This document shows, piece by piece, positions 1-34,907 of a DNA stretch of 34,907 nt. The position numbers and the translations under genes were made by a program. The notes beneath the pieces are model-generated. The model made no database searches. It worked only from the letters and a program-made list of their open reading frames with translations, and was not told the origin of the DNA. Numbering within the stretch: the first letter of the stretch is position 1; every line of letters starts with the position of its first letter. Origin of the DNA: a virus; IMG/VR virus record IMGVR_UViG_3300005833_000085, positions 1 through 34,907 of that record. One strand, given 5' to 3'.

Positions 1-64
1 AGCCCAAGCCCGCGCCCCCCGCGCCATCGCCCCCGCCCAAACCCAAGTCTTCGCCTTCGCTCAT
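1..64 (-). CDS. Gly/Glu/Ala-rich short protein, 5' part (runs off the left end)
   Basis: The start codon at 64-62 overlaps the stop of the LacI-type gene as ATGA. The frame encodes Met-Ser-Glu-Gly-Glu-Asp followed by Gly-rich repeats and is still open at base 1. If base 1 is joined to base 34907, the same frame continues without a stop into Gly-Glu and Gly-Ala repeats and ends at 34857-34855. This gives about 37 residues by direct joining, or about 23 if the shared 18-base repeat is collapsed to one copy; both closures stay in frame. No function is recognised; the sequence looks disordered. The GC-rich low-complexity DNA probably explains why the assembly stopped here. Confidence 0.55.
   Translation of the reverse strand, partial: MSEGEDLGLGGGDGAGGAGLG
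8..25. repeat. 18-base terminal direct repeat, left copy
   Basis: The GC-only 18-mer here is identical to 34870-34887 near the right end. Both copies fall in the same codon frame of the Gly-rich reading frame. It may be the overlap of a circular assembly or two copies of a short tandem coding repeat. Confidence 0.6.
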
Positions 65-870
65 GTCGTGTCTCTCCGTATCAGCGTCGGCGCAAGTACT
101 ACGCGCTCAGGCCGGGCAAGCGTGCGTGAAGGTTCCAGTATCGCCATTCTATACGCCACTTCCGACATTTCCCGTATGGGTTGACGGATAGTCGTTAGAT
201 GCGGCTTTGTTTGCTGGGATATCGGAGCGTCATCATAGCCCACAACGGCGAGGTCTTTGGGCACGGACACACCCCGGTCAGACGCGGCTCGAAGCACTCC
301 GCTTGCGCACGTGTCACCGGCGGCGACGAATACGGCCGTGATGGTCGGAGGTCGGTGGGCATGCCATTCGATGCCATCCGCGGTCGAGTAGTCGTCCACC
401 TGGTAGGTATCGATCGAGAGAAGGGTGGCATGGTCCTCTCGTAGCGCCTGCTCGAGGCCGGCTTTCCTCGCGTCGGCGTTTGCCGAGCCGGGCCTATTGA
501 GTCGTCCGACAATGAGGGCGATCCTGTGATGTCCGTGCTCGATCAGGTGGCGGCCCGCGAGGTAGCCGCCCTGTAGGTTGTCGCAGGACACGCTAGCGGT
601 TCGGTTCGCGTGCTCGTCGATCAGGACCACTGGGATATTGAGCGAACGGAACAAAGTGAGCGTCTCCGTGTCCGGGCGCATCGAGACGCAGACGATGGCC
701 TTCGTGATGGCGGCCCCGCCTTTGACGAGCGATCGCAGAACAGCGCGCTGCTTGCCCGGATCGTCGCTCGCGGGCCGGCTTGAGACTATGCATCGACGGC
801 GGAAGAGGTCCCAGAAGGCCGACGCGAACGGGCCCGAAAAGTTCGGGGCGATCAGGACTAGCGAGGTCAT
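61..870 (-). CDS. LacI/GalR-type ligand-binding domain protein lacking the DNA-binding domain
   Basis: The 269-residue protein matches the periplasmic-binding-like effector domain of LacI/GalR repressors over its whole length. The first strand (SLVLIAPNFSGPF) begins at residue 3. It is followed by a DNLQGGYLAGRHLIEHGHHR segment near residue 95, an R-x-G-x-x-x-AL segment, AVFVAAGDTCASG, VPKDLAVVGYDD and LTTIRQP near the C terminus. The usual 50-60 residue N-terminal helix-turn-helix and hinge are absent; the start overlaps the upstream stop (ATGA), so no room is left for them. Family knowledge says this domain dimerises and binds a small molecule such as a sugar or nucleobase. Inference: it could sense a metabolite or form mixed dimers with host LacI-family repressors. 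The ligand is unknown. Confidence 0.85.
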   Translation of the reverse strand: MTSLVLIAPNFSGPFASAFWDLFRRRCIVSSRPASDDPGKQRAVLRSLVKGGAAITKAIVCVSMRPDTETLTLFRSLNIPVVLIDEHANRTASVSCDNLQGGYLAGRHLIEHGHHRIALIVGRLNRPGSANADARKAGLEQALREDHATLLSIDTYQVDDYSTADGIEWHAHRPPTITAVFVAAGDTCASGVLRAASDRGVSVPKDLAVVGYDDAPISQQTKPHLTTIRQPIREMSEVAYRMAILEPSRTLARPERVVLAPTLIRRDTT

Positions 871-1202
871 CTCGCACCCTTCCTCTCCCAGATCCCCGCG
901 TTCACCTCGCGTGACATCTGCCGCACTACGTCGAGCGCCTGTCGTTCGTCGGATGTGAGCCGATCTGCGGCCCCGTCCAGGACTTTACTGGCAAGGCGTA
1001 ACGCGCAGACATCGCAGCACGTCGAGCCGGCTACGCAGTGATACCGGCTCGCCTCGATCGCCTCTTCGCACTCATCACAGACTACCTCTTCGCACGCGGA
1101 CAGCGGGCCTCCCGGGGACGCGAGTTGCGCGGTGGAGGTGGGATCTTCAAGGCTCATTGGTCCACAGCCTTCGCATCGATACATGGATAGCATCGTGGTC
1201 AT
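867..1202 (-). CDS. Cys-rich putative zinc-binding protein
   Basis: The 111-residue start was chosen at 1202 because a GGAG sits 5 bases upstream and the ATG overlaps the previous stop; a longer frame to 1277 lacks this support. Cysteines occur as C-x2-C near residue 10, C-x2-C near 42 and CC-x2-C near 61, with single Cys between, suggesting one or two zinc knuckles. The C-terminal 45 residues look helical and charged. It lies in the leftward operon and is translationally coupled to the LacI-type gene downstream. No family is recognised; a nucleic-acid or protein-binding adaptor is a guess. Confidence 0.7.
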   Translation of the reverse strand: MTTMLSMYRCEGCGPMSLEDPTSTAQLASPGGPLSACEEVVCDECEEAIEASRYHCVAGSTCCDVCALRLASKVLDGAADRLTSDERQALDVVRQMSREVNAGIWERKGAR

Positions 1203-1531
1203 TTGGTCTCCTTCGCACGGGCGGCTATTATTGCGTCGGCGAGCTGGTAGGCGCGGCCAATCACGGTTTCCGCCCATGGGTCCTTCGCGTCCACCTGCAA
1301 CCCGATGATTCCTTTCGCCATTTCAACCACGATCCGGGCCCTCTGCACGGGGTGCAGTGGATGGCGCCCGCACAGATCATTAGCGTCCACAACGGGCCAG
1401 GCCGACGTGGTCTGCAATCCATTCGGTAGCGGGGACACCTTGGGCGCATCGATCCGGCATTGGTATGCTCTACCGTCTCGCACTGCTGTTTGTCGGCCGA
1501 ACACGCAGCTCGCGCATGTGGGACTATCCAT
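1199..1531 (-). CDS. Small phage protein with N-terminal zinc-ribbon-like motif
   Basis: The protein has 110 residues. The N terminus has CASC, a Cys about 16 residues later, and a conserved-looking DLCGRHP motif near residue 52. This C-x2-C ... C ... W-P ... C-G pattern is common in small phage zinc-binding proteins. The C-terminal half has a hydrophobic helix and may form a second domain. It overlaps the upstream gene by 8 bases and the downstream gene by ATGA, so it is part of one operon. Function unknown. Confidence 0.7.
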   Translation of the reverse strand: MDSPTCASCVFGRQTAVRDGRAYQCRIDAPKVSPLPNGLQTTSAWPVVDANDLCGRHPLHPVQRARIVVEMAKGIIGLQVDAKDPWAETVIGRAYQLADAIIAARAKETK

Positions 1532-2110: not shown

Positions 2111-2202
2111 CTGTGCCGCCATTCCCAGATCGCCCAGGCCAGGGCCGAGAGAACAATTAGCGCGCCCATCACAACAAACGGATTGTCGTACCAGTAGATC
2201 AT
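2107..2202 (-). CDS. Tiny single-span membrane protein, 31 residues
   Basis: The ATG at 2202-2200 overlaps the stop of the upstream gene, and its stop (2109-2107) overlaps the ATG of the downstream gene, both as ATGA. The protein starts MIYWYDNPF and has one strongly hydrophobic segment of about 17 residues (VVMGALIVLSALAWAIW) followed by EWRHR, the positive-charge pattern of an N-out, C-in membrane span. The double coupling and clean hydrophobic profile argue it is real. A role in membrane modulation, such as exclusion or holin control, is only a guess. Confidence 0.6.
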   Translation of the reverse strand: MIYWYDNPFVVMGALIVLSALAWAIWEWRHR

Positions 2203-2372
2203 GATGATTTCACTTTCGCCAGTTCGGTTTCGATTGCGGAGATCAGATCGGCTCGTGCCTTATCGAGCCGTCGCCTATTTCTCTGCGACTTCAGGGCGAG
2301 CGCATACCCCGCGGCGCAGGACTGTTTCTCGAACACTGTGAGGGCAGCTACAATCTGTTCGCTGATCGCCAT
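2199..2372 (-). CDS. Small hypothetical protein, first gene of the leftward operon
   Basis: The start at 2372 has a perfect GGAGG about 7 bases upstream; a longer frame to 2405 would run over the promoter. The protein has 57 residues and is an amphipathic helix-rich sequence (Lys/Arg/Glu with Ala and Leu), ending ETELAKVKSS. Probably an early-expressed regulator or accessory protein; no family is recognised. Confidence 0.65.
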   Translation of the reverse strand: MAISEQIVAALTVFEKQSCAAGYALALKSQRNRRRLDKARADLISAIETELAKVKSS

Positions 2373-2391
2373 ACGCCAACCTCCGATGCTC

Positions 2392-2421
2392 AGACTACGC
2401 TGCATGCGGATGGCCTGTCAA
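2392..2421 (-). promoter_or_regulatory. Candidate sigma70 promoter for the leftward operon
   Basis: On the minus strand TTGACA (2421-2416) is followed after 18 bases by TAGTCT (2397-2392), about 20 bases ahead of the first start codon. The -35 is a perfect match and the -10 is partial (3 of 6). It lies back to back with the Cro-like gene, as expected of an early divergent promoter. Confidence 0.55.
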
Positions 2422-2462: not shown

Positions 2463-2660
2463 ATGAAGCTGGGCGACTACCTCCACAAGCGCGGCGAGAC
2501 ACAGGCGGCCTTTTCGCTACGCATCTGCGTTTCTCCGCAGATCGTCTGCGATTGGGTCTCTGGACGGAGGTCGCCGAGTCTCCGGCATATGATCTCTATC
2601 CGCGACGCCAGTAAGGGCCGCGTCGGATACTCCGACTGGGCAGCGGTGCGAAAATCATGA
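2463..2660 (+). CDS. Cro-like helix-turn-helix regulator
   Basis: The 65-residue protein has a helix-turn-helix around residues 13-36 (TQAAFSLRICVSPQIVCDWV), then GRRSPS and a helix reading MISIRDASKG, the layout of small Cro/CI-type DNA-binding proteins. It opens the rightward operon and faces the leftward one across a 90-base divergent region, so repression of one or both promoters is likely. A GTAGGG sequence precedes the ATG. Unusual Cys residues sit in the recognition region. It could act as Cro or as the only repressor; no larger CI was seen. Confidence 0.8.
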   Translation: MKLGDYLHKRGETQAAFSLRICVSPQIVCDWVSGRRSPSLRHMISIRDASKGRVGYSDWAAVRKS

Positions 2661-3468: not shown

Positions 3469-3879
3469 ATGAAGCTTATATTGACGGTAGGTTTACCGAG
3501 ATCAGGAAAGAGTACATGGGCCAAAACAACAGGTTATCCGATAGTCAACCCTGACGCGATCAGGTTGGCTCTCCATGGGAAGCGATTTCTGGCCTTGTCG
3601 GAACCTTGGGTTTGGGTTATCGCTTACACAATGGTAGCAGCGCTATTCCGGGCAGGAAACGAGACGGTGTTGGTAGACGCTACGAACGTGACCGAGAAAC
3701 GTCGCGAGGAATGGAAGGGGAGATACCAGAATGTCGAGCTGAAGATCTTCGACACGTCGCCACAGGAATGCATCCGGAGAGCTCGAGCGGAGGGCGATGA
3801 GGAGATCGTTCCGATAATCAAAAGGATGGCCTCAGAGTGGGATATGGCCAAACCTGCATCGTGGGAGTCGCAGGAGTGA
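3469..3879 (+). CDS. P-loop kinase of the polynucleotide kinase type
   Basis: The 136-residue protein aligns by eye with the kinase half of T4 polynucleotide kinase: MKLILTVGLPRSGKSTWAK (Walker A, residues 8-16), a NPDAIR segment, VDATNVTEKRREEW near residue 69, FDTSPQECIRRA and EIVPIIKRM. There is no phosphatase domain, so it is a kinase-only form of the AAA_33 type, probably phosphorylating 5'-OH ends of DNA or RNA. The ribosome site is GGAGG with a long spacing. It is followed with overlap by a nuclease gene, suggesting work on nucleic-acid ends. A nucleoside or other small-molecule kinase is the alternative. Confidence 0.75.
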   Translation: MKLILTVGLPRSGKSTWAKTTGYPIVNPDAIRLALHGKRFLALSEPWVWVIAYTMVAALFRAGNETVLVDATNVTEKRREEWKGRYQNVELKIFDTSPQECIRRARAEGDEEIVPIIKRMASEWDMAKPASWESQE

Positions 3880-4337
3880 CCCGACAGCGAAAGCTCGACG
3901 CGAACGACGGAGAGATCACGGCGGCATTGCGCGGGGCAGGCGCCCTAGTGTGGCACCTTGATTGCGTCGAGCCGGGCCGCCCTGATAAGCTCGTGGCAAT
4001 CTTCGGCCATCTCTACCTACTCGAGATCAAGGCGCCAAAGACCGGCCGGCTATCGAAAAAGCAGGTCGAGGCTCGCGCGGAGATGGCCCGACATGGCGTC
4101 AAGGTCCACGTGGTTCGCTCGCAGAAAGAGGCGTTCGAGGCCATCGGAATCGGGGGCGCGAAAGCAGAGGATCGCCGTCGCGCTCTGGGAGAAATCGCCG
4201 CGAACCTCCGCAAAACGAGCGACGATTTCGAGCGGCGCGCCCGCCTCGTGCCGAGCTCGCGGGACTACCGTGGGTCGTCGAACTGGGAAGATGGCCATCG
4301 AGAAACGCCGACGCCCTCGAACCCGAGGGAGATTTGA
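3876..4337 (+). CDS. PD-(D/E)XK (VRR-NUC-like) nuclease
   Basis: GTG at 3876 overlaps the kinase stop (GTGA). In the 153-residue protein E13, D37 (GRPDKLV), and E50-x-K52 (LLEIKAPKTGRLS) followed by a Lys/Gln helix fit the PD-(D/E)XK core, and the spacing resembles small VRR-NUC nucleases of phages. Such proteins cut DNA or DNA junctions. The region after residue 105 is Arg/Glu-rich and less conserved-looking. The kinase-nuclease pair suggests DNA end or junction processing during replication or packaging. Confidence 0.7.
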   Translation: MTRQRKLDANDGEITAALRGAGALVWHLDCVEPGRPDKLVAIFGHLYLLEIKAPKTGRLSKKQVEARAEMARHGVKVHVVRSQKEAFEAIGIGGAKAEDRRRALGEIAANLRKTSDDFERRARLVPSSRDYRGSSNWEDGHRETPTPSNPREI

Positions 4338-4984
4338 TCGCCGCTCTCTTCGTCGACCCGAAGGGAGTCTACTCGGGACTACCCGACGTGGACTGCTGGG
4401 GCGAGGATCGGGACGCTCGGCTCTATCCCGGACCGTGGCCCGTGGTCGCGCACCCGCCCTGCGGCCGATGGTGTCGGCTCGCTGGCCTCGTCCAGGCGCG
4501 GTGGGGCCACAAAAAGGGTGATGACGGAGGGTGTTTTGAGTCGGCGCTTGCGTCGGTCCGCCGATGGGGCGGCGTGCTTGAGCACCCAGCGTACTCGGCC
4601 GCCTTTGCCGCGCACGGTCTACCGGCTCCCGCCGGAGCGTGGCAAAAAACGATCTGCGGTGGATGGGTTTGCCAGGTCGAGCAATGGCATTACGGCCACG
4701 CCGCCAAAAAGGCAACCTGGCTCTACGCTTATACCGGTGTGGCTCCTCCGTCTCTCCGGTGGGGCCGTACCCTCGACAACGCCGAAACCGCGTATGTGAC
4801 TGATGGTGGTGGTGACGCGAAGCGCCGCAATAGAGCGCTAGTTTCCTGGTGCGGAAACCACGTCAAGGACGGCGAAAACAGAAAGCGACTCGGCAGTAAA
4901 GCCGCGTCCGCCACCCCGATCGCATTCCGTGACGTGCTCCTTTTGATTGCTCGTTCATGCCGCTCGGCGGAGGGCGAGATCTAG
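4334..4984 (+). CDS. Phage protein with HPPC and EHP motifs, possibly methyltransferase-like
   Basis: TTG at 4334 overlaps the nuclease stop (TTGA). The 216-residue protein has VVAHPPCGRW near residue 37, a GDDGGCFESAL segment, GVLEHPAYS near residue 80, and GWVCQVEQWHYGH. The PPC and E-(H/N)-P pair recalls motifs IV and VI of cytosine-C5 DNA methyltransferases, but no clear SAM-binding glycine motif is visible, so the assignment is tentative. The family itself looks familiar from other phages as an unnamed protein. It closes the kinase-nuclease gene set. Confidence 0.5.
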   Translation: MIAALFVDPKGVYSGLPDVDCWGEDRDARLYPGPWPVVAHPPCGRWCRLAGLVQARWGHKKGDDGGCFESALASVRRWGGVLEHPAYSAAFAAHGLPAPAGAWQKTICGGWVCQVEQWHYGHAAKKATWLYAYTGVAPPSLRWGRTLDNAETAYVTDGGGDAKRRNRALVSWCGNHVKDGENRKRLGSKAASATPIAFRDVLLLIARSCRSAEGEI

Positions 4985-9795: not shown

Positions 9796-11211
9796 ATGCC
9801 CGAGATCAACGTTCAGTTCACTGCACCTGCGACCCTGGGCCGCTTCCTGGGCAGTGATGCTTTCGTTCGGGCCGTCATTGGTCCAGTGGGCTCGGGCAAA
9901 TCGAGCGCGTGCGTCGTGGAGGTGCTTCGCCGCGCGATTCGGCAACGTAGAGGCCCGGACGGGCTGAGGCGAACCCGCTTCGCGATCATCCGCAACACGT
10001 ACCCGCAGTTACGGGACACGACGCGGAAGACGTTCGAACAATGGATCCCAATCGAACTCGGTCGGTGGAAGGAGCAAGAGTTTACCTTTGAGTTGAATTT
10101 CCAAGACGTTCGAAGCGAGGTGATGTTCAGAGCGCTCGACCGGCCGCCGGACGTGAAAAAGCTACTCTCGCTCGAGCTCACGGGCGCGTACATAAACGAG
10201 GCACGCGAGATTCCGCATTCAATCTTTGACCTACTGCAAACTCGTATTGGTCGCTATCCATCGAAGGCGCAAGGCGGGTGCACGTGGCGCGGCGTGTGGA
10301 TGGACTCCAACCCGTGGGCGAAGAGTCATTGGGGGTATCAATTATTCACGAAACACAAGAACGTGAAAGACGAGCATCGGCACTTCTACGAGATTTTCGA
10401 GCAGCCGGGTGGGCGCACTATCGCCGCTGAGAACGTCGACAATCTTGAACCCGGGTACTACGACCGGCTGACGGCCGGTAAAGATTCCGAATGGATAAAG
10501 TCGTACGTTGACGGTCAGTACCCCGATGTGGATCAGGGCTCGATCTGGGGCGTTCAGATGGCGCTACTCGAGGCACGTGGCGGGATCTGTGAGTTCGACC
10601 ACCCGATGGACGGAGTGTTCACGAACTGGGATCTGGGGATTTCAGACTCGACGGCAGTCTGGTTTTGGCGTCTCAATCGCGACGGAGTGCCCGACGTGAT
10701 CGATTACTACGAGGCGAGCGGCGAGCCCCTCTCGCACTTCTTCGATGTGGTCGAGGGCAAGGGGTATCAGTACATCAAACATTGGCTTCCGCATGACGCG
10801 CGAAATAGGACGTTTCAGACCGGGGTGAGCACTGTCGAGTTCTTCGTCTGGAGATTTGGTAGCGGGAGCGTGGGGATCGGGCCAGAATTATCGCTCATGG
10901 ATGGCATCCAGGCTGGGAGGTGGCTGCTTGAGCAACCCGTACGGATTCACTCCCGTTGCGCCCTTGGGATCGAGGCGCTGAACGCCTATCACAACACATA
11001 CAGCGAAGAAACACAGGATTACAGTCGCATTCCGTATCACGATTGGTCGAGCCATTCCGCGGACGCATGGCGGTACGTGGCCTGCGTCGTTCGCGCGTCG
11101 GACATCATGACGCGGAGGCCGGAGAAAGTAATCAATCCGCCGGTTGGCTCGTTGTCGCAGAGTTTCTCGCTCGATCAATTGTGGGCTGAGCATGAGGAAG
11201 GTAGGGTGTAA
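9796..11211 (+). CDS. terL: Large terminase subunit (packaging ATPase/nuclease)
   Basis: The 471-residue protein has Walker A GPVGSGKS (residues 29-36), an LTGAYINEARE Walker B-like strand with catalytic Glu near 135, and an RNase-H-type nuclease half with NWDLGISDSTAVWF (D279, D284), LPHDA (D334) and HSADAWRY near 435. It drives DNA into the prohead and cuts it at the end of packaging. The stop overlaps the portal start (TAATG). Length is normal for the family. Confidence 0.95.
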   Translation: MPEINVQFTAPATLGRFLGSDAFVRAVIGPVGSGKSSACVVEVLRRAIRQRRGPDGLRRTRFAIIRNTYPQLRDTTRKTFEQWIPIELGRWKEQEFTFELNFQDVRSEVMFRALDRPPDVKKLLSLELTGAYINEAREIPHSIFDLLQTRIGRYPSKAQGGCTWRGVWMDSNPWAKSHWGYQLFTKHKNVKDEHRHFYEIFEQPGGRTIAAENVDNLEPGYYDRLTAGKDSEWIKSYVDGQYPDVDQGSIWGVQMALLEARGGICEFDHPMDGVFTNWDLGISDSTAVWFWRLNRDGVPDVIDYYEASGEPLSHFFDVVEGKGYQYIKHWLPHDARNRTFQTGVSTVEFFVWRFGSGSVGIGPELSLMDGIQAGRWLLEQPVRIHSRCALGIEALNAYHNTYSEETQDYSRIPYHDWSSHSADAWRYVACVVRASDIMTRRPEKVINPPVGSLSQSFSLDQLWAEHEEGRV

Positions 11212-13154
11212 TGGCGGAACCCGTAGACAGTCGAGCCCAGTTCGCAGACACGCCGCAAGGGTGGGCAGAGCGATGGAACATGGAGATCACGGCGGCGCGC
11301 AAAGAGGTCGATAAATGGCACGGGCAGGCGACGCGCGCAATAGCGAGGTATCTGGGCGATCACAGCGACTCGGATCGCGTGGATACCGGCCGGCTCAACC
11401 TGTTTCACGCGAACGTGACCACTCTCCAGGCGCTCTTATACGGCAAGACGCCGACGGTGGACGTGGCTCGGCGTTTCGCCGATTCCTCAGATGATACGGC
11501 TCGGGTAGCGGGCGAATGCCTCGAGCGGATGCTGAATACGGACATCGAACGCGACTCCGATACGTTCGCTCAGGCAATGCAGCTCGCGCTCGAGGATCGG
11601 CTGATTGCGGGGCTCGGCGAGGTGAGGCTGAGATATGTGGTGGAATTCGAGACGCAGGAGATCCCGGCACAGATGGGGCCGCCGGACCCGCTCACCGGTG
11701 AGGCTGTAGAGGTTGCGCCCGCCTACTCTCAGGAGGTCAAGACATTCGAAGATGTGGAGACCGACTATGCGCACTGGCGCGATGTGCTTTGGAGCCCGGC
11801 CCCGACACATGACAAGATTCGATGGAAGGCATACCGGGCGTATATGCCCGAAGAGGCGCTGATCGAGCGGTTCGGTGAGAAGATCGCGGCCGGTGTGCCG
11901 ATGAAGGGCCGGAAGCGGGATGACACACAGGGGACGGGCGTCGAATCCGATCCGTGGCAGAGAGCCGAGGTCTGGGAGATTTGGAGCAAAGAAGATAAGC
12001 GGTGCTACTGGTGGGTCGACGGCTGTGATGCGATCCTTGACGTGAAGGATGATCCTCTGGGGCTAGATGGATTCTGGCCCGGCCCGGCGCCGATGATCGC
12101 AAATTGCACCACGTCGCGATTCGTACCCAAGCCGGACTACGAGATTGCAAAGACGCTATATAACCAGATCGACAACCTGGGCGAGCGCATCGGACTACTC
12201 GAAGGCGCAATCAGGGTTGCGGGGGTCTACGACAAAGCATCACCCGAAGTCGCGAACCTGATCACTAAGGCGGCCGAAAACAAACTCTATCCGGCGGACA
12301 ACTGGGCAATGTTCGCTGAAAAGGGCGGACTGAAGGGGCAGGTCGATTGGTTCCCGCTCGATCAAATTGTGATGGCGTTGAATGTGCTCGCGCAGCGCCT
12401 GGACACTAAGATCCAGTTGCTCTACCAGATCTCGGGAATGAGCGACATCATGCGGGGCGCGACCAACCCGACCGAGACGCTCGGAGCCCAACAGTTGAAG
12501 GCAAAGTTCGCGAGCGTGCGCGTGCAACGCCTTCAAGATGACGTTGCCAGGTTCGCGAGCGATACGCAGAGGATCAGGGCCGAGATTATCTCGAAGCATT
12601 TCGATCCGAAGACGATCATCGACCGCTCGAACGTCATGCAAACGGCCGACGCTCAGTATGCAGAGCAGGCGGTTGTGTTGATCAAGGATCAGTTCTACGG
12701 CTACCGCGTGGCCGTCAAGCCGGAGGCCGTAGCGCTCACCGATTTCGCCGCCCTGAAACAGGAGCGGACGGAATTCTTGGGAGCCCTCTCGAGCTTCCTG
12801 CCCCCGCTCATGGGTGCCGCACAACAGATCCAGGGCTCGTTGCCCTTCCTGCTGGAGATGCTGAAATGGGTGATGGCCGGATTCCGGGGTAGTTCGACGA
12901 TCGAAGGTGTCATGGATCAGGCGATTGCGGCGGCAAAAAAGCAGGCCGAGCAACCGACATCACCGCAGCCCAATCCGAAAATGCAGGTGGAGCAACTGCG
13001 CGCGAAGGCCGGAATGGAGAAGGAGAGGCTGAGGGCGGCGGCGGGCATAGCCAAGATCGACAAGCAGACCGAAGGTGAAGTGATCAAGCAAGGCGCTCAA
13101 GCCGCTTTTTCGGAGGTGGCGAGGCCGCCAATGCTCCCGGAGCGCGTGATATGA
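11211..13154 (+). CDS. Portal protein
   Basis: The 647-residue protein is of the long portal type seen in P22-like and related short-tailed phages. The N-terminal wing starts with a TPQGWAERWNMEITAARKEV segment. Acidic and Trp-rich parts follow (ETDYAHWRDVLWSPAPTHDK near 183), then SGMSDIMRGATNPTETLGAQ near 420. The C-terminal end is a long Ala/Lys/Gln-rich helix, like a barrel. It forms the dodecamer ring through which DNA is packaged and ejected. Order terminase-portal-scaffold-capsid supports the call. Confidence 0.9.
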   Translation: MAEPVDSRAQFADTPQGWAERWNMEITAARKEVDKWHGQATRAIARYLGDHSDSDRVDTGRLNLFHANVTTLQALLYGKTPTVDVARRFADSSDDTARVAGECLERMLNTDIERDSDTFAQAMQLALEDRLIAGLGEVRLRYVVEFETQEIPAQMGPPDPLTGEAVEVAPAYSQEVKTFEDVETDYAHWRDVLWSPAPTHDKIRWKAYRAYMPEEALIERFGEKIAAGVPMKGRKRDDTQGTGVESDPWQRAEVWEIWSKEDKRCYWWVDGCDAILDVKDDPLGLDGFWPGPAPMIANCTTSRFVPKPDYEIAKTLYNQIDNLGERIGLLEGAIRVAGVYDKASPEVANLITKAAENKLYPADNWAMFAEKGGLKGQVDWFPLDQIVMALNVLAQRLDTKIQLLYQISGMSDIMRGATNPTETLGAQQLKAKFASVRVQRLQDDVARFASDTQRIRAEIISKHFDPKTIIDRSNVMQTADAQYAEQAVVLIKDQFYGYRVAVKPEAVALTDFAALKQERTEFLGALSSFLPPLMGAAQQIQGSLPFLLEMLKWVMAGFRGSSTIEGVMDQAIAAAKKQAEQPTSPQPNPKMQVEQLRAKAGMEKERLRAAAGIAKIDKQTEGEVIKQGAQAAFSEVARPPMLPERVI

Positions 13155-13597
13155 GAGGCACAGCTATAGGAGAAAGGGTTGTTTCGCAGGCCAATACCCC
13201 CGACTACGAATCCGGGTATGACCGGGTTTTCGGCGTTCGGTCACCGAGAAAGGGGCGATGGATTTGGGATGATCGAACCAACCAACTGGTTTTGGCTGAG
13301 GAGTACCAGGAACCGACGAGCGATGCGCGCGTGCCCGTGTTCGGTGACTCGCACTACGACGGGCTCGTGATGACGGACGGCACAATCTGCGACTCGAAGC
13401 GGAAGTTTCGGGAATACCTGAAGGCCACGGGCGGTGCGGTCGCGAGTGACTATCACGACCATTGGGCCGAGCGGAAAGCGCAGCGATCGAGAGAGCTACG
13501 GGACACGAGAGAGCGGCGCGAGACGATCGGCCGATCAGTCTACGAAGTAGAGAAGGGCTACAAGCCCAAGAGGCGATACTATGACGACCCGCTTTGA
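13151..13597 (+). CDS. Conserved-type virion-module protein, unknown function
   Basis: The 148-residue protein is coupled to the portal gene (ATGA). It contains VFGVRSPRKGRWIWDDRTNQ, VFGDSHYDGLVMTDGTICDS and a highly charged C-terminal helix (WAERKAQRSRELRDTRERRE) ending KPKRRYYDDPL. The DG-T-x-I-x-S-K-R-K-F-REYLK block looks familiar from proteins beside portals in podoviruses. It may be a structural or assembly factor. No enzymatic motif seen. Confidence 0.65.
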   Translation: MRGTAIGERVVSQANTPDYESGYDRVFGVRSPRKGRWIWDDRTNQLVLAEEYQEPTSDARVPVFGDSHYDGLVMTDGTICDSKRKFREYLKATGGAVASDYHDHWAERKAQRSRELRDTRERRETIGRSVYEVEKGYKPKRRYYDDPL

Positions 13598-13784
13598 AGC
13601 GATCATTGCTACGCTGAGAAATTTCGGGAAGAAAAACGACGATGACACGGCGGACACAGCCGAAGAGGGGGCCGACGCTCTAAATGCCCTGCTTCCGGAG
13701 GCCGTTTCGGGCCGTCAAGCGGTTCGGAGTCAACGGAGCAAGATGGCAGAACTCGACAAAATGCTAGAGGAGGCCAACCGATGA
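13581..13784 (+). CDS. Small helical hypothetical protein
   Basis: The 67-residue frame overlaps the previous gene by 17 bases and the next by ATGA. It is acidic in the middle (KKNDDDTADTAEEGADALNA) and ends in a helix (SKMAELDKMLEEANR). Probably a small assembly factor; unrecognised. Confidence 0.55.
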   Translation: MTTRFEAIIATLRNFGKKNDDDTADTAEEGADALNALLPEAVSGRQAVRSQRSKMAELDKMLEEANR

Positions 13785-14257
13785 TGCGAGCGATTGTGGT
13801 AGTACTGGCGTTGTTATTTGCGGGCCCCGCATTCGCGACCGATTGCGTGTGGAGTGCGATCACGGGCGCAACGCGTAGCCGCAAAGGCGTGGGTGCGGTC
13901 AATTGCACTCTGACGGTTGCCACGGCGGCGGCCGATGCGGGAATGTGGCTGAACGCAGCAGGGGGTTTCTCGGTGTGGGTTTGCGCGGATGCCGAACAGA
14001 CCATCACGGCGGCATTTTCGTTGACGGCCTACGCCCAGGAACCTTACTCGCTGCTTTGGGGGCCACAACCCGCCTGGGATGTTGCAAGTACGTCAACCGG
14101 GAGCCGATGCGCTCCGATTGGCACGGGGTGGAGGGTAGATTCTCCGGCGGGCCGCGTGGCGTTTGCTCCCTCGGCGGGAGCTGTTTCGAGCGGGGGGATC
14201 ACCATCAAGATCATCGCGACCGGAGTAGGGAAGTACGACGGGTTCGAGTTGTTGTGA
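13781..14257 (+). CDS. Exported protein with signal peptide inside the head module
   Basis: The first 20 residues (MMRAIVVVLALLFAGPAFA then TDC) form a classic Sec signal with AFA cleavage site. The mature 139 residues contain four Cys (two likely disulfides), look beta-rich, and include WVCADAEQTITAAFSLTAYA and LLWGPQPAWDVAST. The family is not recognised. A protein exported to the periplasm is unexpected between portal and scaffold; it may be a moron-type secreted protein or a virion protein whose N terminus is retained. The four Cys agree with export. Confidence 0.7.
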   Translation: MMRAIVVVLALLFAGPAFATDCVWSAITGATRSRKGVGAVNCTLTVATAAADAGMWLNAAGGFSVWVCADAEQTITAAFSLTAYAQEPYSLLWGPQPAWDVASTSTGSRCAPIGTGWRVDSPAGRVAFAPSAGAVSSGGITIKIIATGVGKYDGFELL

Positions 14258-14267
14258 AAGGGAGACC

Positions 14268-15377
14268 ATGAACGATCAGGCTGAGGGCGCAACTACACTG
14301 CACGATGATTTGTCGGCGGCGTTTGACGAGGTGACGACGGCGGCAGAGTCATCGCCAGCAATGCAGCAACCGGCGACTGAGCCAGAACCCGCGGTGACTC
14401 CTGAATCTCAGGCGATCGGTACTACTGCTCGAGACGGGAAAGGAAAGTTTGCGTCGAACTCGGCGAAGGATCCGGCGAAGCCCGAAACGGCAAAGCCGGT
14501 CACCTCCACGGGTAGGGAGGCAGCGGCCCCCGGAGCGTCTCAGCCCGCCACGGGTGCCGCTGCGCCCGCTACCCTGAAGGCTCCCCAGTCGTGGAGGCCG
14601 GCCGCTCGAGAGAAATGGTCGGCTCTCCCCAAAGAAGCGCAAGAGGAGGTCCTCAAACGCGACCACGAGACCCAGGCGGCGTTGCACGAAAGCGCCGAAG
14701 CGCGGAAGTTACAGGCCGACTTCAACCGAGTGGTGTCGCCTTACGAGGCCTTCATCCGCTCAGCAGGCTCGGAGCCGCTGAAGACCGTGCAAAACATGCT
14801 AAACACGGCCGTGATGCTGCGCACCGCGCCACCTCAAGTGAAGGCGAAGGAAGCGGCGGCGCTGATCCGACAGTACAACATTCCGGTGGACATGATCGCC
14901 GCGTTTCTCGACGGTCAGCCGGTACAGCAAGGACACGCGGCTCAGCAAGCCGCGTTTCGGGATCCCCGGCTGGATGAACTCATTTCGGTCATCGAGCAAG
15001 ATCAGAAGACGCGAAGCGAGGGGATCATCTCGCAGGCCATGGAAGAGACCAAGGCCTTCGCGGGTGACCACGAGTATTTTGAGGATGTGCGCGAGGACAT
15101 GGCCGACATCATGGAGGTATCAGCTAAACGCAAGATTGTGTTGACTCGCGAGCAAGCGTATGATCGAGCATGTGCCATGCACCCGGAGATCTCGGGGATC
15201 TTGGCGCAGAGGAAAGCCGCCGAGCAAGCCGCGACATCGCAAGGTGCCACGCAGCGGGCTAAGCAAGCAGCGTCGAGCGTGAGATCTCACCCGACCGTGT
15301 CGGCCGGGGGAAGAGCAGAAAGCGGAGATCTCAGATCGACAATCGAAGCGGCGATGGAAGAGGTTGCGTCGAGGTAG
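14268..15377 (+). CDS. Capsid scaffolding protein
   Basis: The 369-residue protein starts after GGGAGACC. Residues 1-105 are disordered, rich in Ala, Pro, Glu, Thr. The middle has SWRPAAREKWSALPKEAQEE, PYEAFIRSAGSEPLKTVQNM and LRTAPPQVKAKEAAALI, then a coiled part (DQKTRSEGIISQAMEETKAF) and a basic C terminus. This architecture and the position directly before the capsid gene match internal scaffolds, which guide capsid assembly and then leave. Confidence 0.8.
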   Translation: MNDQAEGATTLHDDLSAAFDEVTTAAESSPAMQQPATEPEPAVTPESQAIGTTARDGKGKFASNSAKDPAKPETAKPVTSTGREAAAPGASQPATGAAAPATLKAPQSWRPAAREKWSALPKEAQEEVLKRDHETQAALHESAEARKLQADFNRVVSPYEAFIRSAGSEPLKTVQNMLNTAVMLRTAPPQVKAKEAAALIRQYNIPVDMIAAFLDGQPVQQGHAAQQAAFRDPRLDELISVIEQDQKTRSEGIISQAMEETKAFAGDHEYFEDVREDMADIMEVSAKRKIVLTREQAYDRACAMHPEISGILAQRKAAEQAATSQGATQRAKQAASSVRSHPTVSAGGRAESGDLRSTIEAAMEEVASR

Positions 15378-15391
15378 CAGGATCGCAGTAG

Positions 15392-15445
15392 GTGAGAGCT
15401 CGAGTCGAGCCCACTCACTCCAGAGGCCCCCTAGTCCGGCGGGGC
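15392..15445 (+). promoter_or_regulatory. Two tandem hairpins between scaffold and capsid genes
   Basis: First: GTGAG-a-GCTCGA-g-TCGAGC-cca-CTCAC (15392-15418). Second: GCCCC...GGGGC (15426-15445). No U-tract follows either. They lie in a 133-base leader ahead of the capsid gene and may affect mRNA stability or processing. Confidence 0.45.
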
Positions 15446-15510
15446 GTGAGCGAATGGTATAGGGCCATCCACGCGCAGAAGGTCGGGCAAGGTTTCCTAC
15501 GGGGTGACTC

Positions 15511-16479
15511 ATGGCTTGGCCCAATACGTCCTACTCCGACATCATTGCGACAACCTTGGAGCATCGAGCTCCCAAGATTGCCGACAACATGTCGAACAAC
15601 ACGGCTCTTCTCAGCCGATTGTCAGCAAAAGGGAAGGTTCGCACCGTTTCAGGCGGTACCAAGATCGTCCAGCCCATCTCCTACGCGGAGAATGGCAACT
15701 TCATGTATTACAGCGGGGCAGAACAACTGCAGGTTTCGCCCGCTGACGTGATTACGGCTGCAGAGTACGCCTGGAAGCAGGCGGCGGTTCCCGTGATGAT
15801 CAACGGGCTCGAGGCCGATGTGCAGAACACCGGAAAAGAGGCGCTGATCGATCTCATGGAGGCTAGGATCTCGGTCGCAGAGCAGACCATGATCAACAAC
15901 CTCTCAGTGGGGCTGTACAGTGATGGTACCGGGAGCGGTGGCAAGCAGATCACCGGGCTCGGCGCGGCTGTCCCGATCACCGTCACGAACACCTACGGCG
16001 GAATCGATCGCAGTTCATGGACGTTCTGGCGACCAATCTACCAGGCGGCCGGTTACGCCTCGACAACTATCTTGGCAGGTATGGATCTCCTTTGGGCGCA
16101 GCTCGTTTCGGGCACGATCAAGCCGGATCTGTATCCCTGCGATGCGGCAATGTGGGCTCTATTCGAGGCCGCATTGCAGCCCTTGCAGCGGATCACCGAT
16201 CCCAAGATGGCTGACGCGGGATTCCAATCGTACAAGTACAAGGGCGGCGATGTCGTGCTCGACGGCGGCATTGGCGGCGCTTGCACGACCAAGACGATGT
16301 TCTTCCTGAACACCGACTACATCCATTGGAGGCCGGCCGCGAAGCGAAACATTGTGCCTCTTTCCCCGAATCGTCGGTTCGCCACAAACCAAGACGCCGA
16401 AGTGCAGATTCTTGCATTCGCTGGCAACCTCACCATGTCCGGCTGTCGCTATCACGGCCGCCTAGTCGATACGGACTAA
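15511..16479 (+). CDS. Major capsid protein
   Basis: The 322-residue protein starts MAWPNTSYSDIIATTLEHRA, followed by ADNMSNNTALLSRLSAKGK, GGTKIVQPISYAENGNFMYY, NTGKEALIDLMEARI, LYSDGTGSGGKQITGLGAAV, and KYKGGDVVLDGGIG. This is a widespread phage coat family related to the HK97 fold. It forms the icosahedral shell, with a scaffold encoded upstream and decoration protein downstream. Confidence 0.92.
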   Translation: MAWPNTSYSDIIATTLEHRAPKIADNMSNNTALLSRLSAKGKVRTVSGGTKIVQPISYAENGNFMYYSGAEQLQVSPADVITAAEYAWKQAAVPVMINGLEADVQNTGKEALIDLMEARISVAEQTMINNLSVGLYSDGTGSGGKQITGLGAAVPITVTNTYGGIDRSSWTFWRPIYQAAGYASTTILAGMDLLWAQLVSGTIKPDLYPCDAAMWALFEAALQPLQRITDPKMADAGFQSYKYKGGDVVLDGGIGGACTTKTMFFLNTDYIHWRPAAKRNIVPLSPNRRFATNQDAEVQILAFAGNLTMSGCRYHGRLVDTD

Positions 16480-16509
16480 CAGTCATAGTCCAGAAAGGAG
16501 ATAAATCAC

Positions 16510-17010
16510 ATGGCATGGAAAATAACAGATCCCGAGATTGGCCTTCAGCCGATCACGGATACATCCACGACGCAGAAGCATCGGCTCGGCAAGAAGATCA
16601 CGGCTTTCGACGACACCTACGGGCAGGGCGAGTTCATCTATTGCGTCGGAGTCGCAGACACGGCCATCGGGTGCGCTGCACAGATCAATCTGTACGGCCA
16701 CACAACGGCGCTTGTCGATACGGACGTTGCCGACTCGATAGTTGGACCTGTCGGGATCGCAATGTCCGCGAACGTGGCGAGTCAATATGGGTGGTATCAG
16801 ATCCGAGGAACAGCTATTGCCCTCGGCGCTACGAGTCTAGCAGACAACGCCAAGGTGTTTGCGACTGCAACGGCCGGTACGCTCGACGATTCCGGAACCG
16901 GAGGTCAGCAAGTCATCGGGGCAAAGTCAGCGTCCGCGCTCGACACCCCTACTACGGGCAAGTTCTTGATCGAACTGTCCTATCCGTGGCTTGGAGCTAA
17001 CGTAGCGTGA
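16510..17010 (+). CDS. Probable capsid decoration (head-stabilising) protein
   Basis: The 166-residue protein follows a strong AAAGGAGATAA site. It has an N-terminal PEIGLQPITDTSTTQKHRLG segment and then a beta-rich body with DDTYGQGEFIYCVGVADTAI. Known phage relatives of this pattern lie just after capsid genes and bind the outer shell. It could also be a small structural protein of another kind. High expression is suggested by the ribosome site. Confidence 0.7.
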   Translation: MAWKITDPEIGLQPITDTSTTQKHRLGKKITAFDDTYGQGEFIYCVGVADTAIGCAAQINLYGHTTALVDTDVADSIVGPVGIAMSANVASQYGWYQIRGTAIALGATSLADNAKVFATATAGTLDDSGTGGQQVIGAKSASALDTPTTGKFLIELSYPWLGANVA

Positions 17011-17017
17011 TACAAGA

Positions 17018-17048
17018 GCCCGCCTTCATGGTGGAGGCGGGCCTTTTC
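17018..17048 (+). terminator. Rho-independent terminator after the decoration gene
   Basis: A 7-8 base GC stem (GCCCGCC(T)/(A)GGCGGGC) with a short loop is followed by CTTTTC. It lies 8 bases after the stop and may reduce expression of the tail genes relative to the capsid genes. Confidence 0.75.
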
Positions 17049-17065
17049 ACAGCAAAGGAGAGCAC

Positions 17066-17692
17066 ATGTTGGGACTCGCGTCGAATGAAGAGCAGACGTT
17101 GGCTGAGGAGTCGCTATCAGGGAATCAATATCTAGGGGACGAAAAGCTTCATGTGAAATTCTACATAGAGGCGATCGAGAATCCGACCAAGTCGAAGAAG
17201 GAAGGCCGGCCGATCTTCGAAGACACGGAAATGGTGTTGATCGTTCCGCCGGGCGACAAAGATAACACGGTTATTGCGCCCGCACGGAACTACGCCGATC
17301 GTTTTCGGAGCCGGTATAACGCATGGAAGGCCGGACAGGATCAGGATGCGGTGATCGGTACGCCGCTGAAGGAATGGCCAGGTGGACCGAGCGCGTCGCA
17401 GGTCAAGGAACTCGCGTTCTTCGAGGTCCGCACAGTCGAGCAGTTGGCTGGTGTCTCGGATGGAAATCTCCAGTCAATGGGGCCCGGCTACCTGCTCTTG
17501 CGGCAGAAGGCGCAGAAGTACCTCGAGGCCTCACACGGCGCAGCAAGCGCTGAGAAGGTTCAGGCCGAGCTCGCGAAGCGGGATGCCGAGATTGAGGTCC
17601 TGAAACGCGCGCTCAAAGAGCAGAATGAGCAGATCAAGAGGATTCAGGCGCAGCAAGATCCGGAATCCGGCCCTAGAGCGCGGAAAGGGTAA
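17066..17692 (+). CDS. Virion-module protein with C-terminal coiled coil
   Basis: The 208-residue protein follows AAAGGAGAG. It has KFYIEAIENPTKSKKEGRPI, PGDKDNTVIAPARNYADRFR, GTPLKEWPGGPSASQVKELA and VRTVEQLAGVSDGNLQSMGP, then an Ala/Glu/Lys coiled coil (about residues 157-197). The pattern is recurrent between phage capsid and connector genes, but the role is not known. Confidence 0.65.
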   Translation: MLGLASNEEQTLAEESLSGNQYLGDEKLHVKFYIEAIENPTKSKKEGRPIFEDTEMVLIVPPGDKDNTVIAPARNYADRFRSRYNAWKAGQDQDAVIGTPLKEWPGGPSASQVKELAFFEVRTVEQLAGVSDGNLQSMGPGYLLLRQKAQKYLEASHGAASAEKVQAELAKRDAEIEVLKRALKEQNEQIKRIQAQQDPESGPRARKG

Positions 17693-17694
17693 TC

Positions 17695-18429
17695 ATGGCG
17701 GCTCGATTCGACACAGCGGGAACGATCATCAATGACGTAGCGGTCGCGGTCGGGCTTTCTGCTGTGACGGATCCATTCGCATCGACTGACCCGATTTTCG
17801 TTCAGCTTTGTCGGCTTCTGAAGGTCGTAGGCCGACGGTTGGCGCTCGCGCGCGACTGGACCTCGATGGTCAAGGAGCACAGTTTCGTGACGGTCGCGGC
17901 AACCAATTCCTACGATCTGCCAGCCGATTTCGCGAAGATGATCGATCAAACCGGGTGGGACCGCACTGGGGAGCTGCCCCTCGGCGGCCCCCTCGATGCG
18001 GCGCAGTGGCAGTATCTTGCAGCGTCCGATCTGGGAGTGACTCTTCAGGTGCATGTCCGGTTTTGGCAAGACAACATCCACCTCTGGCCTCAGCCGGTAG
18101 CGGGAGGTCTGACGATCGCCTTCGAGTACCTCTCTCGACTGTGGGTTATGCCCTCCGGCGAGACGGTGGCAACAAACGACATACCCACCGCGGCGACCGA
18201 TACGATCCTCTTTGATCCGGCCCTCGTATGCGCGGCGCTTGAGCTAGCATGGGCGAAGGCGAAGGGATTCGACACCTCGGCGGCCCTGGCCGATTTCAAT
18301 CAAGCATGGTCCTCAGCGGCCGGGAATGACACAGCTTCCCCAGTGCTTTCGCTCACTGGCCCGGCTCTTGGGCCTCATTTCCTGGACGTGAACAACATTC
18401 CCGACATCTTTGGGACCACAAGCGTCTGA
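17695..18429 (+). CDS. Head-tail connector (adaptor-like) protein
   Basis: The 244-residue protein starts two bases after the previous stop, at ATG with AAAGGG upstream. It has an N-terminal helical part with FVQLCRLLKVVGRRLALARD, then VAATNSYDLPADFAKMIDQT and an aromatic beta part (DNIHLWPQPVAGGLTIAFEY). This layout fits adaptor proteins such as P22 gp4-like or phi29-like lower collar that join portal and tail. Homology is inferred by order and overall pattern, not a fixed motif. Confidence 0.65.
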   Translation: MAARFDTAGTIINDVAVAVGLSAVTDPFASTDPIFVQLCRLLKVVGRRLALARDWTSMVKEHSFVTVAATNSYDLPADFAKMIDQTGWDRTGELPLGGPLDAAQWQYLAASDLGVTLQVHVRFWQDNIHLWPQPVAGGLTIAFEYLSRLWVMPSGETVATNDIPTAATDTILFDPALVCAALELAWAKAKGFDTSAALADFNQAWSSAAGNDTASPVLSLTGPALGPHFLDVNNIPDIFGTTSV

Positions 18430-18430
18430 C

Positions 18431-20056
18431 ATGCTCACGCGAACCGTACAGCCCAGGCGACAAATCATCATGGCGGCTCACATGCCCGCGCCGCTAGGCG
18501 GGATCAATCGAGCCGATCCCGCGTCAGCCATGCCCCCTCTCGATTGTCTGTCGCTCAAGAACATGTTGGGCTCTCAATATGGACTCAAGGTGCGCTACGG
18601 GTATCGAGAGTGGTGCACGGGTCTTGGTAGTCCGGCCGAAGAAGTGCGATCTATTCTCTCCTTTGCAGGCTCGACGGATGACGGTCTAGCCGATCGCCTC
18701 TTCGCATGCACGACCTCGGGAATCTGGGACGTGACGGAGTCGAGTGCGGCGCCTGTCCAGGTCTATGCGTTCCCGACCTCGAATGGAACTTCGGGGTACG
18801 GGGTAGGAACCTCGTTTGTCACGAGCGCGGGCCATTTCTACCTATATTGTGACGAGGCTAACGGATACCTGGTTTACGACGAATCGACCGATACCTGGGA
18901 GCTGATCGCCGAGGGCTCGGACGTGGGGGAAATCCAGGGCGTAGACCCGCGACATTTGGCCTTTGTCATGGTCTGGAAAAGCCGTGTTTGGTTCGTCGAG
19001 CGCGACACCGCAAACGCTTGGTATCTCGACGCGGGTGCCATGTACGGAACGGTTACCCGGTTTACTTTCGGCAACAAGTTCCGGTATGGAGGATCTTTGG
19101 TAGGCCTGTGGAACTGGACTATCGACGGGGGAGCGGGAATCGATGATCTATTGGTAGCCGTAAGTCGAGCGGGGGACGTGGCGATCTACCAGGGAACCGA
19201 TCCGGATGAACTTACCACCTTCTCACAGCGCGGCATGTGGTTTGTAGGAGGCGTTCCGGCTGGCCGGCGCGTTTGCACGGATTTCGGTGGAGACATCCTT
19301 TTGCTCTCCTCTCTCGGCGTGATCCCTTTGTCGAAGCTGATTTCGGGCGGTGAAATTGCCAGTCCAGACGCATTCGCGACACGGAAGATCGCTCCGTACT
19401 TCCAAGACGCAATGAGTGTGAAAAAGGGCATGAGCGGGTGGGAGGTCCGTATTCACCCCGAGGACAGTTCACTCATCATCGAAACCCCGACATTCACGGC
19501 TCAGCCTGCCAAGCAATTCGTCATGTCACTCTCAAGCAAGGGATGGTCTGAATATGAAGGCCTCCCGATGAAATGCGCGGAAAGCTGGCGCGGAAAACTG
19601 TACTTCGGCACGGAAGACGGCCGGATTTGCATCAATGACGGGCTATATGACAACGTCGCGATCGATGGTTCCGTGACGGAAGCATATGATGTGGCGTTCA
19701 GCGGCCTTTCGGCGTTCCAATCGCTTGGGAACGTGAACAAGAAACGTATGCAGTTCTTCCGTGTTCTACTCCGAGTCAACGGGGCTACGCCATCTTGTAT
19801 CGAGGAAGCCCGATATGACTTCGATGAGCGCGAGATCTCGACGGCACTTCCGGCCGCGCCAGTATCGGGAAGCGCTCTTTGGGGTACAGCGATTTGGGGA
19901 ACATCTCTTTGGACTGGCGGACTCAAGCCGAGCATTCACGTACGCGGGGCGACGGGGATCGGTACGCATATGGCGGTAGCGTGGAAGGGCACCGCTCATT
20001 CTCAGGTGATTCTGATCGGATTCGATCTGTCGTGGGACGAAGGGGGGCGACTATGA
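18431..20056 (+). CDS. Tail hub / DNA-stabilisation-type beta-propeller protein
   Basis: The start at 18431 lies just after the previous stop; 18470 (MAAHMPAPLGG) is an alternative. The 541-residue protein has PAPLGGINRADPASAMPPLD, NMLGSQYGLKVRYGYREWC, and repeated beta/aromatic segments such as GDVAIYQGTDPDELTTFSQR and WRGKLYFGTEDGRICINDGL, typical of beta-propeller tail hub proteins (P22 gp10-like). It would plug the DNA and connect to the ejection machinery or tail fibres. Its stop overlaps the GNAT start. Confidence 0.7.
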   Translation: MLTRTVQPRRQIIMAAHMPAPLGGINRADPASAMPPLDCLSLKNMLGSQYGLKVRYGYREWCTGLGSPAEEVRSILSFAGSTDDGLADRLFACTTSGIWDVTESSAAPVQVYAFPTSNGTSGYGVGTSFVTSAGHFYLYCDEANGYLVYDESTDTWELIAEGSDVGEIQGVDPRHLAFVMVWKSRVWFVERDTANAWYLDAGAMYGTVTRFTFGNKFRYGGSLVGLWNWTIDGGAGIDDLLVAVSRAGDVAIYQGTDPDELTTFSQRGMWFVGGVPAGRRVCTDFGGDILLLSSLGVIPLSKLISGGEIASPDAFATRKIAPYFQDAMSVKKGMSGWEVRIHPEDSSLIIETPTFTAQPAKQFVMSLSSKGWSEYEGLPMKCAESWRGKLYFGTEDGRICINDGLYDNVAIDGSVTEAYDVAFSGLSAFQSLGNVNKKRMQFFRVLLRVNGATPSCIEEARYDFDEREISTALPAAPVSGSALWGTAIWGTSLWTGGLKPSIHVRGATGIGTHMAVAWKGTAHSQVILIGFDLSWDEGGRL

Positions 20057-34854: not shown

Positions 34855-34907
34855 TCAGGTTTGGCCCTCGCCCGCGCCCCCCGCGCCCGCGCCCTCGCCC
34901 TCGCCCC
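34855..34907 (-). CDS. Gly/Glu/Ala-rich short protein, 3' part (continues at base 64 of the other end)
   Basis: This frame runs in from the right end on the minus strand as GEGEGAGAGGAGEGQT and stops at 34857-34855. It matches, in phase, the open frame that leaves base 1. See the entry at 1-64. It contains the right copy of the 18-base repeat (34870-34887). Confidence 0.55.
   Translation of the reverse strand, partial: GEGEGAGAGGAGEGQT
34870..34887. repeat. 18-base terminal direct repeat, right copy
   Basis: Identical to 8-25. The flanks (GAG/GCG-type codons) extend the low-complexity array on either side. Confidence 0.6.

Follow-up and report, generated by a model that had tools for sequence, protein, structure and literature searches.

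The phage gene at positions 61 to 870 of the window, on the minus strand, encodes a complete effector core of the LacI/GalR family in its predicted fold, and the match to the family is far beyond chance. The window is the whole of IMG/VR virus record IMGVR_UViG_3300005833_000085 (34,907 bases, classed linear). Two defining features of the repressors, the LacI-type helix-turn-helix (HTH) and the hinge helix, were looked for and are absent; by membership the protein is therefore not a LacI/GalR repressor, its predicted fold and pocket being those of the family's sensor half. Together with a homologue from a second phage it forms a small phage lineage of HTH-less LacI cores with two known members, a stronger observation than the one originally stated. 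Our preferred reading, to which we assign a probability of about 0.4, is a soluble cytoplasmic ligand switch that would derive from a LacI/GalR repressor, would have lost the HTH and hinge and would signal via a partner protein. The features of the window and of the second phage (contig IMGVR_UViG_3300042731_006157, 38,903 bases, hereafter L058) are as follows.

Window 61 to 870, minus strand: LacI/GalR-type effector-core protein without HTH, 269 aa, ATG start (Pfam, structure search, fold).
Window 877 to 884, minus strand: Shine-Dalgarno-like AGGAAGGG, 6 nt before the ATG, a good match by sequence.
Window 867 to 1277, minus strand: upstream Cys-rich gene with CxxC pairs, ATGA overlap; perhaps starts at 1205 (112 aa).
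Window 1 to 64, minus strand: next frame, start only, in ATGA overlap with the LacI-like stop (MSEGEDLGLGGGDGAGGAGLG).
Window 1199 to 1531, 1524 to 1931, 1928 to 2122 and 2199 to 2405, minus strand: small upstream frames, no Pfam family.
Window 2463 to 2660, plus strand: HTH_3-like (Cro/CI-type) gene, divergent, facing the operon (PF01381, E 3.3e-4, below the curated cut-off).
Window 34858 to 34907, minus strand: the other record end, a G+C-rich stretch of the same kind as the left end.
L058 2613 to 3413: LacI-like gene, 266 aa (alignment scan, end-to-end match).
L058 3410 to 3643: winged-HTH protein, 77 aa, in ATGA overlap with the LacI-like gene (profile matches).

The effector core (Peripla_BP_3/1) spans the whole length of the protein. 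PF13377 is matched with an E-value of 4.9e-31 (Pfam), and the best match among solved structures is PurR (4.5e-24). The top NCBIfam match is RbsR (5.2e-35), its 121 bits lying far under the curated cut-off of 382. An AlphaFold monomer model made with four bacterial homologues lacked the second strand and had a pLDDT of 77.7; with the L058 protein added to the alignment, the pLDDT was 89.3 and the pTM 0.87, and the second strand formed at residues 28 to 33. The protein is predicted to be a complete two-lobed LacI core. The top fold matches are LacI-family cores, rows no more than 1 apart in Z being treated as tied. Residues 1 to 269 align with residues 59 to 331 of PurR (1qpz_A, Z 27.8, rmsd 2.3, 259 aligned); CcpA is matched over residues 63 to 331 (2o20_C, Z 29.6, rmsd 2.5, 258 aligned). 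Another top match is ribose-bound 4rk1_D (Z 29.0, rmsd 2.2, 256 aligned). The original prediction had claimed an effector-domain match over the whole length and had proposed structure prediction and a fold search; profile, structure and fold results all agree with it, and the core is predicted to be intact.

Ligand-contact residues of the family are found in the cleft. F15, D97, R135, D186 and D213, which we take to be the family's ligand-contact positions, are kept in both phages; among 33 homologues, F15 is Phe or Tyr in 31 and the other four residues are present in 25, 32, 31 and 30, respectively. This retention, which it had been suggested to check, makes binding of a small molecule by the window protein plausible. 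The ligand contacts of PurR, we assume, are Y73, F74, S124, D146, W147, D160, R190, T192, R196, F221 and D275. The window protein has the same residue at S124, D146, R190, R196 and D275; Y73 is replaced by Phe, and D160 aligns with C96, beside D97. Since F74, W147, T192 and F221 are not kept, a purine is not specially indicated as the ligand. We note that both phages have G185 in place of the usual Asn (22/33 homologues), and that a CVS(M/L)RP motif at residues 61 to 66 and E86 are marks of the pair. The pocket bears on one alternative, in which the cleft is vestigial and the protein, binding no ligand, is a protein-protein adaptor, for example one binding a host phosphocarrier in the way that CcpA binds HPr. 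The top fold matches do include CcpA cores, as noted, but the ligand-contact positions are kept rather than lost, and we consider an adaptor improbable.

The fold alignment places the first residue of the window protein at PurR residue 59, a position presumably beyond the hinge. The protein thus starts where the core starts, and the hinge helix that joins HTH and core is absent, as is the N-terminal PF00356 HTH. The reading frame is open for 38 codons 5′ of the ATG (open frame 307 aa), and these codons contain neither a start codon nor an HTH. A search with PF00356 gave no match anywhere in the record at E ≤ 10; as a control, it gave matches in 14 of 14 control genomes, in 9 of the 14 above the curated cut-off. 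An HTH profile was also built from 16 homologues and run on the homologue proteins and on all frames of both phages, L068 (the same protein as L033) and L057 having been dropped beforehand. With E ≤ 5e-10, it recovers the HTH from 36 of 37 homologues, a count in which the 16 profile seeds are included; the exception, L081, is a 201-aa frame beginning inside the core. The profile found no HTH in the window protein and gave a non-significant E of 1.9 for the L058 protein. Over every frame of either phage its best E was 1.3, also not significant, which rules out a LacI HTH hidden in another frame. The HTH had been predicted to be missing, with one in a longer or frameshifted N terminus named as contrary evidence; it was looked for and none was found in the protein, in the 38 upstream codons or, at significance, in any frame of the record.

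A search for HTH-less homologues in other phages, also proposed originally, located the L058 protein, which is 43% identical to the window protein over 268 aa by BLAST and 45% identical in a MAFFT alignment, end to end. The L058 gene starts at the same residue as the window protein; an in-frame stop and one codon precede its ATG, and it has its own ribosome site. No match to the window portal, TerL or head protein was found in the L058 record, and the L058 terminase and portal match PHROGs other than those of the window; to judge from these genes, the two virions are of different kinds. The phages have five genes in common (the LacI-like gene and those at 4334, 13781, 27081 and 30662), with a sixth weak; they include neither the winged-HTH gene nor the Cys-rich neighbour. 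One of them encodes a PHROG 12600 protein (window 4334 to 4984, plus strand; L058 4183 to 5154, minus strand; 66% identity), which is matched by 13 phage records, mostly of Pseudomonas and Caulobacter phages and including one microvirus.

A comparison of the two phage proteins gives 194 bits, and no other homologue compared exceeds 112 bits; L058 apart, the five homologues with the highest scores share 33-39% identity with the window core. In a tree of 35 cores (L081, L073, L087 and L055 additionally dropped) the pair groups as a clade (support 100/100) whose stem measures 1.25 changes per column, although the bootstrap was not fully settled. Of the 33 HTH-bearing homologues compared, two come from plasmids and four from records of the phages collection, and none of the 33 (0/33) has the three length changes common to the phage pair. 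In one MAFFT alignment the stretch F15-Q41 has 25 and 26 residues in the pair, against 28-30 in 33/33 homologues (2-5 shorter), and Y161-A179 has 17 and 15 against 18-23; F181-D186 has 4 in both against 3, a one-residue insertion before D186. The longer stretch F15-A58 (42 and 40) lies within the homologues' 40-44, so the shortening of F15-Q41 depends on the alignment. Over 259 codons dN is 0.60 and dS 2.81, giving a dN/dS of about 0.2, a rough value since dS is saturated; 68 of the 116 identical residues of the pair use different codons. Given the clade, the shared length changes, the same start and the codon-level conservation, the HTH was most simply lost once, before the two phage genes parted, and the core would have been kept since. 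This looks like a phage lineage with the sensor kept and not like a decaying fragment, and the occurrence in two phages whose head genes differ suggests that the sensor alone was kept by selection.

The same comparison bears on a proposal of the original prediction, that the protein might form inactive mixed dimers with host LacI/GalR repressors and so open host operons; it would then be a dominant-negative subunit. LacI cores use both lobes to dimerise, and a LacI subunit with a defective HTH can be dominant. The identity of the core to its five best homologues besides L058 is however little for specific mixed dimers. The shortened F15-Q41 stretch is moreover in the N-subdomain interface region: its equivalent in LacI, the first helix and second strand, contributes to the dimer face. 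The closest known relative is itself a phage protein. We regard mixed dimers as quite improbable, and this part of the prediction is weakened; a phage-borne sensor core with predicted fold intact and no DNA-binding domain is supported, joined by an HTH-less homologue in another phage.

The window is a phage, as it encodes TerL, a portal, a major head protein and a RecE-like exonuclease (PHROG-type profile matches) and, at the record end opposite the LacI-like gene, RecT and YqaJ domains (34694 to 32508, Pfam). The portal and major head protein share 47-57% identity with those of Myxococcus phages Mx8 and Mx9, and positions 9796 to 20056 hold TerL, portal, head and neck genes of the Mx8/Mx9 (Myxoctovirus) type. 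The early region with RecT and YqaJ is joined to these head genes and is unmatched in 9/9 related records; near the early genes, positions 3469 to 3879 encode an AAA_33 protein (PF13671, E 2.6e-13), perhaps a kinase. Both record ends are G+C-rich and have an 18-mer in common (8 to 25 and 34870 to 34887), and the right end reads GEGEGAGAGGAGEGQT* in one frame. On the strength of the like ends, the 18-mer and this frame, the record probably represents a molecule, circular or circularly permuted, that is broken at its ends. Headful packaging with terminal redundancy is reported for Mx9 (PMC10281127), which would make an arbitrary opening point of the record unsurprising. A circularly permuted genome of near 35 kb is possible, and on a circular map the minus-strand genes from 2405 to 61 may run on into YqaJ/RecT (34694 to 32508).

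The LacI-like gene lies among phage genes and has 4-nt ATGA overlaps of the translational-coupling type on both sides. Host DNA at the record end, which was considered, is ruled out by these overlaps, the like ends and the presence of the gene in a second phage record. A Pfam family was found for the LacI-like frame only among the six minus-strand frames at 61 to 2405. On one side, the overlap (867 to 870) is with the Cys-rich gene, whose product has a weak TraR-type zinc-finger match (E 0.016), matches PHROG 38339 (E 7.7e-4) and has no match in the phages collection at E ≤ 1. A Cys-rich frame of 72 aa also lies directly before the L058 copy, with no significant similarity to that of the window. 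On the other side, the next frame is Gly-rich and runs off the record within the G+C-rich low-complexity stretch.

None of these minus-strand genes was found at E 1e-4 in nine longer records that share the head and tail genes of the window (seven contigs, Mx8 and Mx9; query 20056 dropped for a stop, Mx9 covered to base 49,900 of 53,495). In a wider set of 29 records (27 viral contigs with the same portal, Mx8 and Mx9, leaving out L005, the IMG/VR copy of Mx8), PF13377 exceeded the cut-off in none; one record has a weak match of 16.6 bits in a frame with stops, and many of the 29 are short fragments. The LacI-like gene is therefore outside the common core of the portal-sharing phage group. Both absences would suit a captured repressor gene of which only a fragment, accidental or in decay, is left. 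The homologue in the second phage with the same start and shared indels, the codon-level conservation, the strong ribosome site and the intact predicted fold argue against decay, which we regard as very improbable.

Few LacI-type proteins were located in the viral collections searched: one confirmed contig relative and one named structure model. The relative came from four scans of viral_contigs with the window protein or alignments led by it. One scan with a LacI alignment gave 69 pattern matches with L058 as the one relative, another gave 169 with no relative among them, and a scan with the two-member alignment returned the L058 contig only. Exact-pattern scans of viral_contigs with the LacI-like protein, TerL, gene 1524 and YqaJ gave no result, nor did a portal-based scan of bacterial genomes. 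In the phages collection 120 records have LacI-type matches, the DE3 lacI among them; judged from the record listings, these look to be mostly host DNA in unannotated or short records. Six were examined: five carry the LacI HTH, and the sixth, L057, is a 640-aa frame with a different architecture. Among plasmids 3,261 records matched, and 2/2 examined carry the HTH. In genomes of three phyla (297, 301 and 288), which may not include the phylum of the host, the best score against the two-member profile was 121 bits (at most 8 candidates scored per genome; cut-offs 1e-25, 1e-32 and 1e-33). Viral structure models at E ≤ 0.001 number four, one of them LacI/GalR-named. Going by titles and abstract openings, nothing was found in the literature on HTH-less LacI proteins of phages; PMC1524935 gives a lacI-family domain match with an E of 0.14 for phage Aeh1.

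With no DNA-binding part, a receptor in the cytoplasm has three ways to act: via a partner, by sequestering its ligand, or as an adaptor. In the preferred reading, a host sugar or nucleoside would be bound in the cleft, the HTH-less core would change conformation, and the signal would be relayed to a partner protein instead of DNA. The likely partner in L058 is the adjoining 77-aa protein, which matches TrmB (7e-6), ArsR HTH_5 (1.3e-5) and IclR (4e-5), the last two just above curated cut-offs, and MarR_2 (9.8e-6), just under it. We note that this protein weakly resembles the HTH part of CRISPR-associated Csa3/CARF regulators (PADLOC, E 6.4e-6). As the next gene, in ATGA overlap, encodes a winged-HTH protein, a split sensor is the most natural reading in L058: the two proteins would be sensor and DNA-binding half of one regulator, encoded separately, and would adjust phage transcription to the metabolism of the host. 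In the window, no frame is significantly similar to the winged-HTH protein (best E 2), so for the window the split switch is argued by analogy with L058, and the partner would be some other protein.

This switch reading is favoured by the predicted complete fold, the L058 homologue, the shared length changes, dN/dS, the pocket positions and the winged-HTH neighbour in L058. It is weakened by the finding of two members only, by the lack of a significant match to the L058 winged-HTH protein in the window, whose next frame is rich in Gly and truncated at the record end, and by the loss of several PurR contacts. The LacI-type motif AANCGNTT is in no excess in the window or L058, and the divergent promoter region of the window has no inverted repeat, which weaken it further; in L058, positions 850 to 1430 hold eight inverted repeats, a count not compared with chance. 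It is equally conceivable that a core with no link to DNA works without a partner, as a sponge that binds and removes a small molecule (a host sugar, a nucleoside or a defence signal). Sugars and purines are known ligands of LacI cores; the predicted cleft is intact with its contact residues, an HTH is missing and a signal peptide would not fit, and no partner gene common to both phages was detected beside the LacI-like gene. A reversible LacI core would however be an unusual scaffold for sequestration, and neither of the two LacI-like phage proteins matches PADLOC at E ≤ 0.1. We think a sponge rather unlikely.

If the switch reading is correct, a split metabolic switch for phage genes would be a phage regulatory design. 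The more general statement, that phages with unrelated virions have a LacI-type metabolite sensor permanently uncoupled from DNA that acts via a separately encoded winged-HTH or other partner, is put forward only tentatively. The data suggest that phages keep a stand-alone metabolite sensor; it would offer an example from nature of a LacI core that no longer controls DNA allosterically. It can now be tested whether phages use such a stand-alone receptor to read the metabolites of their hosts.

The sole PHROG match of the window protein at E ≤ 0.01 is PHROG 11145, a 'DNA binding protein' profile of 343 positions; window residues 40 to 269 match positions 105 to 334, and the N-terminal part of the profile, which we take to be the HTH, has no counterpart. 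The LacI/GalR-named viral structure model, A0A8S5U326 (Siphoviridae sp. ctoyo6, LacI/GalR-like sensor domain protein), is similar (E 9.3e-14, TM 0.82 by its length) but is a 195-aa fragment and only 26% identical. The periplasmic sugar-binding proteins RbsB and YtfQ have the two-lobed fold class in common with the window protein. Unlike these, it has no N-terminal export extension and scores much more weakly against them (RbsB 3.6e-9 vs RbsR 5.2e-35); by inspection of the model the first strand of the core begins at residue 3, which leaves no signal peptide, and Pfam identified no ABC transporter genes among the six minus-strand frames at 61 to 2405. Phage anti-defence sponges of the Tad/Acb type are likened to it as a functional analogy only. 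From the LacI/GalR repressors PurR, RbsR and CcpA it differs in having no HTH or hinge helix, in the shorter stretches F15-Q41 and before A179 and in the residue inserted before D186; in sequence and predicted fold it has their entire effector core, with the Arg/Asp-type residues of the cleft.
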